DNA of 43,317 bases from positions 1-43,317 of IMG/VR virus record IMGVR_UViG_3300038549_000012; one strand, 5' to 3'. Below, in pieces: positions 9,188 through 36,017 of this stretch. The notes under the pieces are model-generated. The model was not told the origin of the DNA. It ran no database searches and saw nothing but the letters and a program-made list of their open reading frames with translations. Source of the DNA: a virus. Numbering within the stretch: position 1 is the first letter of the stretch; every line of letters begins with the position of its first letter. Made by a program: the position numbers and the translations under genes.

Positions 9188-9225
9188 CCCGGCTGCTGTG
9201 GCGCGTGGCTAGGCCGGGATTTTGT
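9188..9225 (+). terminator. Possible terminator
   Basis: CCCGGC (9188-9193) pairs with GCCGGG (9213-9218) around a 19-base loop, and ATTTTGTT follows. The loop is long and the T tract interrupted, so termination may be partial. It precedes leader repeat copy A and the next gene. Confidence 0.4.
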
Positions 9226-9261
9226 TCATTTGACCTGACTTTGTAGTAACCATCACGGAGG
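9226..9261 (+). repeat. 36-bp leader repeat, copy A
   Basis: The core TCATTTGACCTGACTTTGTA runs on to ATCACGGAGG and ends as the ribosome site of the gene at 9267. Related copies stand at 11019 and 11218, each directly before a short gene, with a weaker relative at 11634. Confidence 0.7.
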
Positions 9262-11017: not shown

Positions 11018-11018
11018 G

Positions 11019-11053
11019 TCATTTGATCTGACTACGTAGGACTATCACGGAGA
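11019..11053 (+). repeat. 36-bp leader repeat, copy B
   Basis: TCATTTGATCTGACTACGTA, then GGACTATCACGGAG. It matches copy A except for a few substitutions and a one-base length difference. It directly precedes the ATG at 11059. Confidence 0.7.
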
Positions 11054-11148: not shown

Positions 11149-11225
11149 GAGAGGCCGAGCAGATTGAGCGGGCGGCCAGCATCCTAAAGAATGCTCTCTA
11201 CTCAAATATGTCTTTGGACATTTGA
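11145..11225 (+). CDS. Very short protein candidate (26 aa)
   Basis: A 26-residue helical frame (MREAEQIERAASILKNALYS...) with GGGAGGAAG just before its ATG, overlapping the previous stop. Its own stop lies inside leader repeat C. Function unknown. Confidence 0.4.
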   Translation: MREAEQIERAASILKNALYSNMSLDI

Positions 11226-11253
11226 TCCCACCCTGTAGTTGCAATCATGGAGG
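11218..11253 (+). repeat. 36-bp leader repeat, copy C
   Basis: ACATTTGATCCCACCCTGTA, then GTTGCAATCATGGAGG. It follows the same consensus as copies A and B and ends as the ribosome site of the gene at 11258. Confidence 0.65.
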
Positions 11254-11257
11254 ATTT

Positions 11258-11440
11258 ATGAGCTATTTACACGATATCCTAAACATGATTCAGACTGAAC
11301 AAAAAAACCTTGCCGATGAAATCATACGGCTGCAAAAGATAAAGGATGAAGTAGTTAAGTGGATTTCAGATGATAATCGTGCTGGCTATCCTAAGCATTG
11401 GAAATTAGCCCACCCGCACTTGACTCCCCCCGCGAGATAG
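11258..11440 (+). CDS. Small helical protein (60 aa)
   Basis: The ATG at 11258 follows GGAGGATTT. An in-frame TTG at 11222 would start inside the leader repeat and is rejected. A single long helix (YLHDILNMIQTEQKNLADEI, then IRLQKIKDEVVKW) suggests a coiled-coil dimer. No family recognised. Confidence 0.6.
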   Translation: MSYLHDILNMIQTEQKNLADEIIRLQKIKDEVVKWISDDNRAGYPKHWKLAHPHLTPPAR

Positions 11441-11444
11441 CGTT

Positions 11445-11633
11445 ATGAAACCCGCACCTAGAGAAGATTGGCCGCACCTGACGAATAGTGAGCGCCGCAA
11501 GGTGGCTACACTTCAATGCCGGGCGGACTGGCTGAGACAGCGAATCGAAGTGTGCGAGGTTGAGCCTGTATATGACAAGGCCGAATTGGCCGCTCTACAG
11601 TGGGCGCTAGGTCGGATTGCAACTTTGAAATAG
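11445..11633 (+). CDS. Small helical protein (62 aa)
   Basis: A 62-residue protein, ATG 4 bases after the previous stop, with no clear ribosome site. Sequence such as SERRKVATLQCRADWLRQRI and KAELAALQWALGRIATL points to a helical hairpin. No family recognised. Confidence 0.55.
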   Translation: MKPAPREDWPHLTNSERRKVATLQCRADWLRQRIEVCEVEPVYDKAELAALQWALGRIATLK

Positions 11634-11645
11634 ATTTGATATGAT
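11617..11645 (+). promoter_or_regulatory. Promoter for the structured RNA candidate
   Basis: TTGCAA (11617-11622), a 17-base spacer and TATGAT (11640-11645), a good sigma70-type match. It lies over the 3' end of the 11445 gene. A transcript would begin near 11652 with GACCGCTCACC. A weak relative of the 36-bp leader repeat (ATTTGATATGATCTCAGGAC...CACCACGGA) overlaps it. Confidence 0.55.
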
Positions 11646-11651
11646 CTCAGG

Positions 11652-11765
11652 ACCGCTCACCACGGAAGAGAGAAACCCCTTAGATCAAGGGCGTGCGGGC
11701 TACAGGCCCGGCAGGAATCCTCCCTCCTGTGGTGACACGCTCTTGTTCTCAGGGGTTTTTGTTTT
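11652..11765 (+). ncRNA. Candidate small structured RNA with pseudoknot and intrinsic terminator
   Basis: No convincing coding frame lies here, but the folding signal is strong. Arms 11673-11695 and 11736-11758 are both 23 bases long. They pair over 20 Watson-Crick positions plus one G-U, with two mismatches. Between them sit two hairpins, CGGGC/GCCCG (11696-11710) and CAGGA/TCCTG (11712-11729). TCACCAC at 11657-11663, upstream of the long stem, complements GTGGTGA at 11729-11735, inside it. That would form a pseudoknot, or an alternative fold. The long stem ends in GGGGTTTTTGTTTT, an intrinsic terminator. A promoter precedes it. About 115 bases long; no known RNA family recognised. Confidence 0.6.
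11736..11765 (+). terminator. Intrinsic terminator arm of the RNA candidate
   Basis: The 3' arm CACGCTCTTG...CAGGGG pairs with 11673-11695 and runs into TTTTTGTTTT. It may also act on read-through from the upstream early genes and so divide the early region into two parts. Confidence 0.6.
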
Positions 11766-11789
11766 GGGGCGTGCAGGTGGGTTAGATGG

Positions 11790-11924
11790 ATGGGCATGTG
11801 CGGTTCCGAACCGCAGCAGTTTCACGGGCTAGTGATGGGGGATGAGCCGTTCGACTCGGCGATCCCGGCTGTTTTGGACCATGCCTATCCTTCTAACCCT
11901 CTTGGCGGTCCTCAGGGCGGGTAA
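11790..11924 (+). CDS. Doubtful short frame (44 aa)
   Basis: A 44-residue frame (MGMCGSEPQQFHGLVMGDEP...) with no good ribosome site. It contains the 17-bp palindrome at 11799-11815. It is the longest plus-strand ATG frame between the RNA candidate and the 11994 gene. A second tiny frame (22 codons, 11929-11997) follows and overlaps the 11994 ATG. Otherwise this stretch looks non-coding. Confidence 0.3.
   Translation: MGMCGSEPQQFHGLVMGDEPFDSAIPAVLDHAYPSNPLGGPQGG
11799..11815. promoter_or_regulatory. Perfect 17-bp palindrome (operator-like)
   Basis: TGCGGTTC and GAACCGCA are exact reverse complements around one central base. In DNA this is a typical dimer-binding site. In RNA it would form a six-pair hairpin. 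No ligand is known. Confidence 0.4.
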
Positions 11925-12342: not shown

Positions 12343-12591
12343 GTGAGAATCGTCCAGATCAATGAATCTAATGCCAAGCTTACTGATTGGGACCTTTTCT
12401 GGGAGTGTTACCCAAGAAAGGTCGCCAAACTAGATGCTATGAGGGCATGGAAGCAGACTGAATCTGTTCGACCGGAGATAGAACAGGTGATCGCTGCGGT
12501 CGAGCGGTTGGCGAGGAAAACCCAGGATATCCAGTTCTGTCCGTATCCTGCGACCTGGTTACGAAGGGGGCAATTCTTCGATGAGGACTAG
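12343..12591 (+). CDS. Replication-protein C-terminal domain (stand-alone)
   Basis: An 82-residue protein from GTG 12343 (overlapping TGA as GTGA). It holds the hallmark FWECYPRKVAKLDAMRAWKQ, a helix EIEQVIAAVERLARKTQ, and CPYPATWLRRGQFFDED. This YPRK...PaTWL module normally forms the C-terminal part of phage replication or helicase-loading proteins, behind a DNA-binding domain. Here it stands alone. The initiator may therefore be split, or its partner may come from the host. It is the only replication-type gene recognised in the window. Confidence 0.75.
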   Translation: MRIVQINESNAKLTDWDLFWECYPRKVAKLDAMRAWKQTESVRPEIEQVIAAVERLARKTQDIQFCPYPATWLRRGQFFDED

Positions 12592-13928: not shown

Positions 13929-14494
13929 CCCACACCGAGCAATACATGGGAGAAACGGCTGAGATCGCCAAGCTCCTCATTGACCTGAGCCCTCAGATTG
14001 AAAAGTTGGTGTCTGAACTCATCTCTCTGAGAGCTCGACGCGGGAGGCTCTTTCTGGTGGGTTTGGGGGGGTCTGCTGCGAACTGTTCCCATGCCGTTAA
14101 TGACTTCAGAAGGCTCTGTGGAATAGATGCCTCTACGCCTGTGGATAATTCTGCCTTACTTACAGCTACCGCGAATGACGATGGATGGAACAGCATTTTC
14201 GCAAGCTTAGGCTCTGGAGGAGATGCGCTCTTGATTCTGTCCGTGGGTGGCGGGACTGATACCGTAAGTCTTCCGATTGTTTCTGCTGTTAATACAGCAA
14301 AAACCAAGGGAATGAGAATCCTTGGAATCGTCGGAAGGGATGGGGGATATACGAAATATCAAGGAGATACAGTTATCGTAATCCCGACAGTCAATCCGGA
14401 GAGAGTCACCCCTCATACCGAAGCCTTTCAGATGGTCGTGTTGCACTGCATCGTGAGTCATCCAGACTTACAGATCAGGAAGACGGTCTGGTGA
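13925..14494 (+). CDS. SIS-domain phosphoheptose isomerase-like protein (GmhA family)
   Basis: A 189-residue protein with an N-terminal helix, then LFLVGLGGSAANCSHAVNDF (residues 42-61). This is the sugar-phosphate-binding loop of the SIS fold in GmhA, which turns sedoheptulose 7-phosphate into D-glycero-D-manno-heptose 7-phosphate. LLILSVGGGTDTVSLPIV provides the second SIS motif, and PHTEAFQMVVLH a C-terminal helix with the histidine and glutamate seen in the family. The length is usual for GmhA. The start is the ATG overlapping the tiny basic gene. The longer frame from 13862 is rejected. Confidence 0.85.
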   Translation: MTHTEQYMGETAEIAKLLIDLSPQIEKLVSELISLRARRGRLFLVGLGGSAANCSHAVNDFRRLCGIDASTPVDNSALLTATANDDGWNSIFASLGSGGDALLILSVGGGTDTVSLPIVSAVNTAKTKGMRILGIVGRDGGYTKYQGDTVIVIPTVNPERVTPHTEAFQMVVLHCIVSHPDLQIRKTVW

Positions 14495-15141
14495 AAATCT
14501 TCTTAGATACTGCCGACATTTCGGAGATGATCAGACTTGCTCCGAAGGTCCAGGGCTTTACTACAAACCCCACTTTGATGAGAAAGGTCGGGGTGGTCGA
14601 TTACAAAGCGTTCGCCAAGATCGTCTTGGACAAGTTTCCTGACAAGCCGGTTTCATTGGAAGTCATAGCCGATGACTTCAAAGAGATGGAGAGACAAGCA
14701 AGACTCATTGCTTCTTGGGGGCCTAACGCTTACGTCAAAATCCCGATAACCAATACCAAGGGGGAGTCCTCGATCCCGATGATCAAAGACCTTGCGGACC
14801 TGAATCTGAACATCACGGCAGTAATGGATGTTGACCAGATCAGGGGCCTGCTTCCCACTCTCGGATTGAATCATATCATCTCATATTTCTGCGGGAGGAT
14901 CATGGACACCCAAAGACTTGCCCCAAGATTCATCGGGGAGGGGGATTACCAATTACTCTGGGCGTCTGCTCGGGAAATCTACAATGTGACCCAAGCTGAA
15001 GAGATGGGGTATGACATCATCACCCTCTCGCCAGAACTCTTTGCCAAGCTCGATCTAAAGGGTAAAGACCTGAATCAATATTCTCTAGAGACTGTTCAAC
15101 AATTCTTCAACGATGCACAGAAAGCGGGGTATGTACTTTGA
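14491..15141 (+). CDS. Transaldolase (TalC/fructose-6-phosphate aldolase-like)
   Basis: A 216-residue protein of the short transaldolase family. It shows MKIFLDTADISEM (D6), GFTTNPTLM (residues 22-30) and the Schiff-base lysine K83 in NAYVKIPIT. The GTG start overlaps the previous TGA. Transaldolase exchanges three carbons between fructose 6-phosphate and erythrose 4-phosphate and can yield sedoheptulose 7-phosphate. That is the substrate of the isomerase gene just upstream. Cyanophages carry talC for carbon metabolism, but here the neighbours point to heptose supply. Confidence 0.9.
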   Translation: MKIFLDTADISEMIRLAPKVQGFTTNPTLMRKVGVVDYKAFAKIVLDKFPDKPVSLEVIADDFKEMERQARLIASWGPNAYVKIPITNTKGESSIPMIKDLADLNLNITAVMDVDQIRGLLPTLGLNHIISYFCGRIMDTQRLAPRFIGEGDYQLLWASAREIYNVTQAEEMGYDIITLSPELFAKLDLKGKDLNQYSLETVQQFFNDAQKAGYVL

Positions 15142-16118
15142 ATGTTTTAGTTACAGGCGGCGCTGGTTATGTGGGTTCCCGTCTCATCCCCAAACTCTCC
15201 GGCGAGGGTTACAACGTCACAGTGTACGACACACTTTGGTTTGGAGATGGATTCCTGAATGGACATAACATCATCAAAGCTGACATTCGGGATATTAAGA
15301 GCTTTGAATCTGCTTGCAGAGATCAGGATGTCGTCATTCACCTTGCATGTATCTCAAATGACACGAGCTGCCAACTAGATGAAGCCCTCTCAACGACGAT
15401 CAATTACGATGCCTTTGAGCCTCTAGTCATTGCAGCCAAACGTACCGGGGTCAGGAGGTTCATCTTCTGTTCCTCCTCCTCAGTCTATGGAGTCTCTGAT
15501 GCCCCGGAAGTCACCGAAGATCATCCACTCGTACCACTGACTCTATACAACAAATATAAAGGACTGTGCGAACCCATACTGTTTAGGCATATGGATGACT
15601 CATTCGAGTGTGTTGTCATTCGTCCTGCGACTGTTTGTGGATACGCTCCCCGGATGCGCTTCGATCTCACCGTCAATATCATGACCAACCACGCAGCAAA
15701 GACCGGAAAGATCACCGTCTTTGGAGGAATGCAGAAGCGTCCCAATCTGCACATCGAAGATATGTGCGATGTCTACTCACTCCTCATAAAAGCACCCAAG
15801 GAGAAGATTCAGGGACAAATCTTCAATGTGGGTTACGCAAACATGAGAGTAAGCGAAATCGCAGAACTGGTGGCTAAAGAAGTCGGAGATATGTACCAGT
15901 CTGCTATTGAAATCGTCACCGAGCCTCGGGCGGATAATCGGTCCTATCACATCTCCTCGGAGAAGATCAAAAGGGTTCTAGGGTATGAACCAAAGCGAAC
16001 AGTCAATCAAGCTGTGAGAGACATCTGTACCAAATTCCAGGAAGGGTACATGACCGACTCTCTGACCAATCCGATCTATCTGAACATCGGGCAGTATCTT
16101 GAAAATAGTCTTAGCTAA
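15138..16118 (+). CDS. NAD-dependent sugar epimerase/dehydratase (extended SDR)
   Basis: A 326-residue extended short-chain dehydrogenase. TGGAGYVG (residues 6-13) is the NAD loop, CSSSSVYG carries the serine/threonine position, and Y137-x-x-x-K141 is the catalytic pair. RPNLHIEDMCD is the typical late motif. The substrate should be a nucleotide-sugar, and by context an NDP-heptose or 6-deoxyheptose. Epimerase, dehydratase and reductase activities cannot be told apart by eye. TTG start at 15138 overlapping the previous stop (TTGA). The 3' end overlaps the nucleotidyltransferase by 20 bases. Confidence 0.85.
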   Translation: MNVLVTGGAGYVGSRLIPKLSGEGYNVTVYDTLWFGDGFLNGHNIIKADIRDIKSFESACRDQDVVIHLACISNDTSCQLDEALSTTINYDAFEPLVIAAKRTGVRRFIFCSSSSVYGVSDAPEVTEDHPLVPLTLYNKYKGLCEPILFRHMDDSFECVVIRPATVCGYAPRMRFDLTVNIMTNHAAKTGKITVFGGMQKRPNLHIEDMCDVYSLLIKAPKEKIQGQIFNVGYANMRVSEIAELVAKEVGDMYQSAIEIVTEPRADNRSYHISSEKIKRVLGYEPKRTVNQAVRDICTKFQEGYMTDSLTNPIYLNIGQYLENSLS

Positions 16119-33848: not shown

Positions 33849-36017
33849 ATGTCTCGTGTAAGCGTGTGTAGTGCGGTCCTGAATCAGAGTGACTTTCTCA
33901 AACGGATGATCGAATCCGTAAGGGCACAGACTTTCGAGGATTGGGAACTGGTCTTAGTTGATGATGGGTCTACTGAAGACATCAAAGCCGTTGTGGACAG
34001 TTTTCAAGACCCCAGAATTAGACTGCATCGCTTCTCAGAGAATAGAGGTATTCCTCATGGGATGAACTGGGCTCTGACTCACGCTATTGGAGACTTTATC
34101 CAGCCCCTGTCGGCTGATGAGTTTATCGAAAAGGACAAGTTCAGAATTCAAATCGAGTATCTGGATTCTCATCCTGATATTCATTGTCTGTGGGGTCTCC
34201 CAGGGAAGGGTCCGATGGGCGAAAGACCTCTGTGGGAGCAGAACGTATTGAGGGCTCATAACCGGAGCAGAGAAGCTTGGGTCAGGACCTTACTTAATCT
34301 TGAGAACATCCCCATCGGGGGGGCTTCTATGCTGATGAGAAAGTCAGCTATGGATCAGATAGGAGTATTTGATCCCGAATTTTTTGCCTGTTCAGACCTT
34401 GAATGGTTTGTTCGATTCTTCAAGAAGTTTGAAGGAAAAGTTCTATGTTATAGATGGGCCGATGCTGATCAACCGGAAACACGACTCACAGCTCCCAAAC
34501 CGGACTCAGCGGAGAAGTTCAGAAAGGAACTTCAAAAGCTTCATGCAAAGCATAAATTAGATTTCCCGCCGATCACGGGTAAGATCACTGTAGGAATACC
34601 CGTCTTTAATATGGCGAACTTCATTCCTGAAGCGATCAAGTCCGTATTGAATCAGACCTATCAGGACTTCGAGCTTTTGATCTTGGATGATGCTTCTACG
34701 GATAATCTGATCGAAGTCCTTTCACAATTCCAGGACCCCAGGATTAAGTTTCTAAAATTCGACGAAAACAGAGGAACCATTCAAGCAATTAACCAAATGG
34801 CGGCAATGGGTACGGGAGTCTTTTATGTCTCTTTGGCGGCAGATGACACGATAGAACCTACCTTTCTGGAGAGATGCCTCCGAGAGTTCAAGACCGATCC
34901 TTGGCTAGAGTTTGTCGCTTCACAGACTGATTTCATTGACGAGAAAGGTAATACACACACAGAGGATCATCCTTTCAAGAAAATCCAGAAGGCTCAAAAC
35001 AAGACCCGTGATCAGTGGTTGAGTCATATGTACTATGGAAACGTCTATTTCGGAGTGGGCATGTACCGAAGGAAGACGATTCTTGAAGTGGGAGGTTGGG
35101 GGAATCATGGGGTCTTAACCGACTATGAGATGTATCTAAAACTACTCCAGAGAGAAAACATCAAGATCATTGAGGAAAACCTCACCCATACCAGGATTCA
35201 CGAAGGGAATAAGTCGCTTCTCAATAATGAGGAAGCCAAGAAACTGAGACAGAGATATTTCGACGCTAAACAGCCCTACTATCAACCCAGGATGAAGGTG
35301 ATTTTAGCAACACCTTTCTATGAAATGAGAGGTTTTAGTCCCTACATTCATTCCTTGGTCCACACCGGAAAGCTTCTGACCATGATGGGGATTGAATGGG
35401 ACTGGTGGGAGCTTTCTGGTGATTCCTATGTAGACAGGGCTAAGAATACGATCACAAACAAGTTCCTTGAAGACCCGGAAGCTACAGACCTATTTGTAAT
35501 CGACTCTGATATGCAGTGGAATCCCGACGCTGTAGTGAGGATGTTAGCTTTACCTGAACAGATCGTGATGGGGTCTTATCCCCAGAAGAACTCATGGGAC
35601 AAGTGGACCTCCATACCCGAACTGAAAGAGGAAAATGGAAAGAACCATCCTATAGGCCGAATTCTCCAAGATGGGAGTGCCTTGATCCAGGCAGCTTTCA
35701 TCTCGGGTGGGTTCATTCGAATCAAAAGAGCTTGTCTGGAAAAATACAAGGAATACTACAAAGACTTTACCTATCAGGACTCCTCTGCGGACCCCTCTTG
35801 TCCTGAGAGAGTCTATACGGAGTTTTATGCCTGTGAAAGGGATTCAGGTCTTAGATGGGGTGAGGATAGAGTCTTTGGTAAGAGAATGAAAGCCATTGGA
35901 ATAGATGGATGGATTTATCCCAACATCCACTTCGGTCATTACGGTATTAAGGGTTGGATGGGGAATTACGATACTTTCTTAAGAAAGCCTCCTGAGCAGC
36001 AGAAAGCAATCCAATGA
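33849..36017 (+). CDS. Three-domain glycosyltransferase
   Basis: A 722-residue protein. Domain 1 (about 1-230) is GT2: VSVCSAVLNQSDFLKRMIES, VLVDDGSTED, with SADE at the DxD site. Domain 2 (about 243-475) repeats the GT2 plan: KITVGIPVFNMANFIPEAIK, LILDDASTDN and AADD. Domain 3 (about 482-722) is another GT-A-like domain, with SGDSYVDRAKNTITNKFL, FVIDSDMQWNPDAV and GSYPQKN, of a kind found in phage glycosyltransferases. AAGAAGGA precedes the ATG. Three nucleotide-sugar-binding folds on one chain could add several residues in turn. It sits inside the head operon, between coat and gp4-like genes. Confidence 0.85.
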   Translation: MSRVSVCSAVLNQSDFLKRMIESVRAQTFEDWELVLVDDGSTEDIKAVVDSFQDPRIRLHRFSENRGIPHGMNWALTHAIGDFIQPLSADEFIEKDKFRIQIEYLDSHPDIHCLWGLPGKGPMGERPLWEQNVLRAHNRSREAWVRTLLNLENIPIGGASMLMRKSAMDQIGVFDPEFFACSDLEWFVRFFKKFEGKVLCYRWADADQPETRLTAPKPDSAEKFRKELQKLHAKHKLDFPPITGKITVGIPVFNMANFIPEAIKSVLNQTYQDFELLILDDASTDNLIEVLSQFQDPRIKFLKFDENRGTIQAINQMAAMGTGVFYVSLAADDTIEPTFLERCLREFKTDPWLEFVASQTDFIDEKGNTHTEDHPFKKIQKAQNKTRDQWLSHMYYGNVYFGVGMYRRKTILEVGGWGNHGVLTDYEMYLKLLQRENIKIIEENLTHTRIHEGNKSLLNNEEAKKLRQRYFDAKQPYYQPRMKVILATPFYEMRGFSPYIHSLVHTGKLLTMMGIEWDWWELSGDSYVDRAKNTITNKFLEDPEATDLFVIDSDMQWNPDAVVRMLALPEQIVMGSYPQKNSWDKWTSIPELKEENGKNHPIGRILQDGSALIQAAFISGGFIRIKRACLEKYKEYYKDFTYQDSSADPSCPERVYTEFYACERDSGLRWGEDRVFGKRMKAIGIDGWIYPNIHFGHYGIKGWMGNYDTFLRKPPEQQKAIQ

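Follow-up and report, generated by a model that had tools for sequence, protein, structure and literature searches.

A candidate pseudoknotted small RNA closed by its own terminator stem in the early region of a tailed phage

The leader RNA of phage lambda that runs from the promoter PR' to the terminator tR' (6S RNA) is located beside Q and the lysis genes, and no selected pseudoknot is known in it. In the HDV fold, a 7-nt 5' strand is paired into the core and nested between the arms of the second helix. The put RNA of phage HK022 is about 70 nt long, is composed of two long bulged stem-loops and suppresses termination (PMC9378689), and in pseudoknotted transcriptional riboswitches, e.g., the fluoride riboswitch, a pseudoknot and a terminator helix act with or against each other as the RNA is made (PMC11077080). 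Here we describe a locus in the IMG/VR phage contig IMGVR_UViG_3300038549_000012 (43,317 nt, analysed as a whole and hereafter called the window) whose predicted RNA resembles these systems and differs from each of them in a defining part. In outline it recalls put, with two adjacent hairpins (P2 and P3) that would be made early in a phage operon of lambdoid type, where termination effects in cis are conceivable, but the hairpins are enclosed by a stem (P1) and accompanied by a pseudoknot strand and a T tract, the RNA ends in a terminator, and P2 and P3, although they lie 1 nt apart, are only 15 and 18 nt long and have neither the size nor the bulges of the put stem-loops. It shares with the pseudoknotted riboswitches a possible interplay of pseudoknot and terminator helix during transcription, but its terminator stem is itself P1 of the fold, nothing points to a ligand or a regulated gene, and no Rfam family matches. 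As in HDV-like ribozymes, a 7-nt 5' strand enters the core between the arms of P1, whereas 0 nt separate the 3' strand of the pseudoknot from the closing helix, with neither a hairpin nor an unpaired catalytic segment between them; given this topology and no match to an Rfam model, the HDV-like reading was rejected. We would count it among the phage small RNAs, with a helix arrangement that we could not match to any described class with which it was compared.

The hallmark genes of the window, for a P22-type portal, a terminase, a major head protein and NinG, identify it as a tailed phage whose head module is P22-like. A rightward series of small early genes starts at divergent promoter-like sites, 8182 (-) and 8213 (+), and the RNA locus sits inside this run at 11.65 kb, with an HTH_39 gene (13122) and ninG (13334) downstream. 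Like the lambda PR'/tR' leader, the predicted RNA is short and bounded by a promoter and an intrinsic terminator; no Q gene is recognized immediately upstream, the ORFs there (11222-11440 and 11445-11633) matching nothing in PHROGs or Pfam. The window also carries host-like metabolic genes for a transaldolase and a nucleotide-sugar epimerase (14491-15141 and 15138-16118, respectively) and, adjoining the head genes, a 722-aa glycosyltransferase-type protein (33849-36017).

The locus opens with a putative sigma70-type promoter on the + strand (11617-11645), composed of TTGCAA (11617-11622), a 17-nt spacer and TATGAT (11640-11645), with a TG preceding the -10 box (extended -10), exactly where the original prediction had placed it. 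Taken alone this promoter is weak by consensus, matching 9 of 12 positions in a region whose promoter-like matches are no denser than chance (12 versus 15.3 expected from shuffles); it gains weight because the homologue described below carries TTGACA-16-GAAAAT (L387:8121-8148) in the same register, with 7-8 nt from the end of the -10 box to CCGCU in both sequences. Transcription is predicted to start at about 11651-11653 and, judging from the fold and the covariance comparison, to yield a small RNA of about 112-115 nt (11651-11765, +). Its 3' end is the T tract UUUUUGUUUU (TTTTTGTTTT at 11756-11765, +), which with P1 would form an intrinsic terminator, and P1 of the homologue likewise ends in a T tract (UUUUUGCAUUU). 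The chance ORFs across the site (63 and 116 aa) match no family; the 63-aa ORF (11641-11832), which overlaps the RNA, has no Pfam match and its frame is lost in the homologue, in line with the earlier view that a good coding frame is lacking. At the consensus level, the locus has its own promoter, its own terminator and no conserved ORF, as a trans-acting small RNA should.

In the best reading, the transcript folds into a nearly perfect four-way junction that a pseudoknot closes and in which the terminator stem serves as P1. From 5' to 3' on the + strand, it is composed of the 5' strand of the pseudoknot or alternative helix, UCACCAC (11657-11663); a purine-rich linker, GGAAGAGAG (11664-11672), which joins that strand to P1 and is partially complementary to CUCCCUCC in P3, giving an alternative helix of 16 nt with 81% complementarity; the 5' arm of P1 (11673-11695); the P2 hairpin CGGGC-UACAG-GCCCG (11696-11710); the P3 hairpin CAGGA-AUCCUCCC-UCCUG (11712-11729), whose C-rich loop of 8 nt includes CUCCC; the 3' strand of the pseudoknot or alternative helix, GUGGUGA (11729-11735); and the 3' arm of P1 (11736-11758). 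P1 forms 21 of its 23 pairs, one of them G-U, with two mismatches. A single unpaired G separates P2 from P3, G11729 is common to P3 and the 3' strand of the pseudoknot, and the unpaired nucleotides between helices at the junction of P1, P2, P3 and the pseudoknot helix number 0, 1, 0 and 0. The equal 23-base arms, the two hairpins and the T tract had all been recognized in the original prediction, as had the complementarity of TCACCAC and GTGGTGA, which is exact over 7 nt and is matched by shuffled 5' leaders in 67 of 100,000 cases for the window and 186 of 100,000 for the homologue. The folding z is -5.25 for the 116-nt predicted transcript of the window and -4.87 for the homologue. The ViennaRNA minimum free energy (MFE) structure of the window RNA lacks P2 and prefers a longer hairpin in which CTACAGG pairs with CCTGTGG; P2 and P3 appear in the MFE structure of the homologue and with DNA parameters, and this is the sole version common to both sequences. 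By geometric estimate, the 9-nt linker would be too short to span a coaxial stack of pseudoknot and P1 (~30 bp) but would suffice with the pseudoknot helix stacked on P3 and running alongside P1.

The main evidence for this architecture comes from a related phage. Among 50 relative records, gathered via their portal, terminase and NinG proteins, DNA comparison located a diverged homologue in the IMG/VR phage contig G003, identical in G002 (E about 1e-5), and a covariance model built from the window sequence alone scored it at 50.8 bits (cmsearch, E about 1e-13 to 3e-13); the RNA family so far consists of two distinct sequences, that of the window and that of G003/G002. In a structure alignment of the two, 11 pairs of P1 are altered on both sides with pairing kept, a G-U pair of P1 alternates with G-C, and the pseudoknot helix, UCACCAC/GUGGUGA in the window, reads UGAACAC/GUGUUCA in the homologue, two double compensatory changes leaving 7 bp perfect in both sequences. 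At the level of sequence comparison, these changes show the predicted P1 and pseudoknot pairings to be under selection as pairings, and they support the interpretation that the element is a real RNA whose shape, including the proposed pseudoknot pairing, has been preserved in a related phage despite changes of letters. The stem sequences of P2 and P3 are invariant while P1 drifts, the kept hairpin sequence reading CGGGC.ACAG.CCCGGCAGGAA..CTCCCTCCTGTG, and indels of 1 and 4 nt in loops break any reading frame, so that none is conserved. The comparison thus returned the compensatory changes that the original prediction had called for and no trace of the conserved protein frame that would have spoken against it. 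The 5' strand and P2 lie 32 nt apart in the window (9+23) and 33 nt apart in the homologue (15+18), an almost unchanged spacing despite differing lengths of linker and P1.

The RNA is retained in early regions that are otherwise unrelated at the nucleotide level, as blastn at E 1e-3 returns no similarity between 1.3-14.0 kb of the window and 0.6-12.1 kb of G003. The RNA nevertheless occupies an equivalent place in both phages, with the HTH_39 gene ~1.1-1.5 kb downstream of it and ninG after that. The genes adjoining the RNA are different ones, and this speaks for a self-contained gene and against the leader of one gene. The sole other shared nucleotide feature seen in both early regions is a 23-bp intergenic motif, TTCATTTGAYCTGACNNNGTAGT, located directly upstream of ribosome-binding sites (window 9225-9247, 11018-11040 and about 11217-11239; L387 4952-4974 and 7907-7929; chance expectation ~0.01 per sequence), which is possibly a phage promoter or leader element. 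A tRNA-Leu (TAA) gene is located ~0.7 kb downstream of the homologous RNA (L387:8982-9059); the window has no tRNA gene by ARAGORN.

With modest confidence, we favor a stand-alone gene for a phage small RNA, lying ahead of ninG within the rightward early operon, whose product would act in trans, because the RNA has its own promoter-like site and terminator, differing neighbors and an inner P2/P3 surface conserved in sequence. Host RNA polymerase would start at the local promoter, make about 112 nt and halt at the RNA's own P1/U-tract terminator, and the RNA would fold into the four-way junction with its 5' end tied back into the core by the pseudoknot. P2 and P3 may form a recognition surface, given that their primary sequence is kept while P1 drifts, and from such sequence features we infer a function in trans, most simply by pairing of the CUCCC of the C-rich P3 loop with G-rich Shine-Dalgarno-like mRNA sites, or alternatively by binding of a protein. 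A search for P3-loop pairing with the ribosome-binding sites of orthologous genes returned no convincing target, an uncontrolled ranking favoring G-rich sites, e.g., 38165 and 38437. Against a stand-alone gene stands the location of the RNA itself, as transcription of the early operon would have to pass its terminator, which equally suggests a role in cis.

The main rival, which is possible but to which we give clearly less credence, takes up this point and treats the element as a conditional terminator (attenuator), in which a nested anti-terminator helix, built from the two 7-nt strands plus the purine linker and CUCCC as extension, alternates with P1, and a factor or ligand that recognizes P2/P3 decides on read-through into the downstream operon. 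Its position inside a same-strand operon and the near-constant spacing of the 5' strand and P2 are consistent with this, as are the folds predicted for shortened transcripts: in those that end before the 3' arm of P1, the 7-bp helix is nested with pair probabilities of ~1.0 in both sequences and is lengthened by pairing of the purine linker with CUCCC, reaching 14 of 16 paired positions in the window (G-U included), whereas at full length P1 wins and the helix is lost in both. A co-transcriptional switch is therefore possible in such models, but because they cannot represent pseudoknots these folds do not choose between coexistence and switching. P1 is strongly favored by full-length thermodynamics, P1 and the 7-bp helix share no bases and hence may coexist as a pseudoknot, and the genes directly downstream differ between the phages. 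The original prediction had proposed either a pseudoknot or a switch between two folds; covariation supports the pairing itself, and does so equally for coexistence with P1 and for alternation. An upstream strand (11642-11651) complementary to the 5' arm of P1, considered as an antiterminator in transcripts that read through, has a predicted pair probability of 0. More speculatively, and in our view rather improbably, the locus could represent a novel class among phage regulatory RNAs, with an intrinsic-terminator stem closing a pseudoknotted four-way junction; the order of folding during transcription, read by a factor bound to the invariant P2/P3 surface, would then determine whether the small RNA is finished or the early operon is read through.

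We consider it unlikely that the locus is a late control module like lambda PR'-tR', with a Q-like antiterminator overcoming the terminator and the RNA itself functionless. A promoter and an intrinsic terminator do enclose a short leader, with a strong terminator no more than 120 nt past the promoter and ahead of ninG and later same-strand genes, but such a module would not select a pseudoknot or invariant P2/P3 stems, the locus lies upstream of ninG, unlike lambdoid PR', and no Q-like protein was found among the early ORFs scanned (Pfam/PHROGs), Q being a diverse family. Less probable still is a long but ordinary intrinsic terminator whose internal hairpins are incidental: P1 and the T tract make a good terminator, and long imperfect inverted repeats, with 28 clusters when G-U is allowed, are no rarity in this genome, but pseudoknot covariation outside the terminator stem, invariant P2/P3 and the in-register promoter largely refute it. 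Least probable of all is a single-stranded DNA element, e.g., a replication start site near the primosomal-protein-like ORF at 12343: P1, P2 and P3 also form in DNA-parameter folds, but the promoter and T tract are in register, G-U alternates with G-C in P1 and the window folds better as + strand (z -5.25) than as - strand (-3.01), a difference that is small in the homologue.

As the original prediction had it, no known class is recognizable: Rfam 15 gives 0 matches at the gathering threshold and, below it, only chance matches of microRNA or snoRNA type, and the SRP RNA, tmRNA and tRNA family models do not match, which disposes of an SRP-like reading. Exact-pattern scans returned no further members among the IMG/VR matches listed or in the GTDB genome collection, nor did blastn of INPHARED and PLSDB; the dozens of pattern matches in those scans are chance by the P1/P2/P3/PK descriptor, and an architecture descriptor run over 3.0 Mb matched only the window and homologue sequences. 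No copy turned up in the remaining relatives searched; those closest in their portal proteins, though, are short records, which probably stop before this region and hence say little. A two-sequence model found none in 50 further relatives, in 10 seed genomes, in 297 genomes from the phylum of an Acidobacteria genome or, CRISPR array aside, in 369 genomes of one bacterial class. Several candidates were set aside. The extra hits in L369 and L382 seem to be a single protein-coding stretch shared by two related contigs; what the covariance search picked up in G452 is a CRISPR array whose repeats are palindromic; the short Rhodobacter phage matches, confined to the first 19 nt at the 5' end, were taken as chance; and a covariance hit on the minus strand of the RNA locus is no more than a reflection of the stem's self-complementarity. 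The strongly palindromic repeats of the CRISPR array at L507:1501-3100 mimic the closing stem of the RNA in covariance searches.

Catalogues of structured non-coding RNAs from environmental phages are poor. Here one was first recognized in raw sequence, and covariation, pseudoknot included, in a phage with an early region otherwise unrelated at the nucleotide level then confirmed it; its compact core offers a precise target for probing and deletion. That the RNA is kept amid gene replacement suggests that it has a role in infection.
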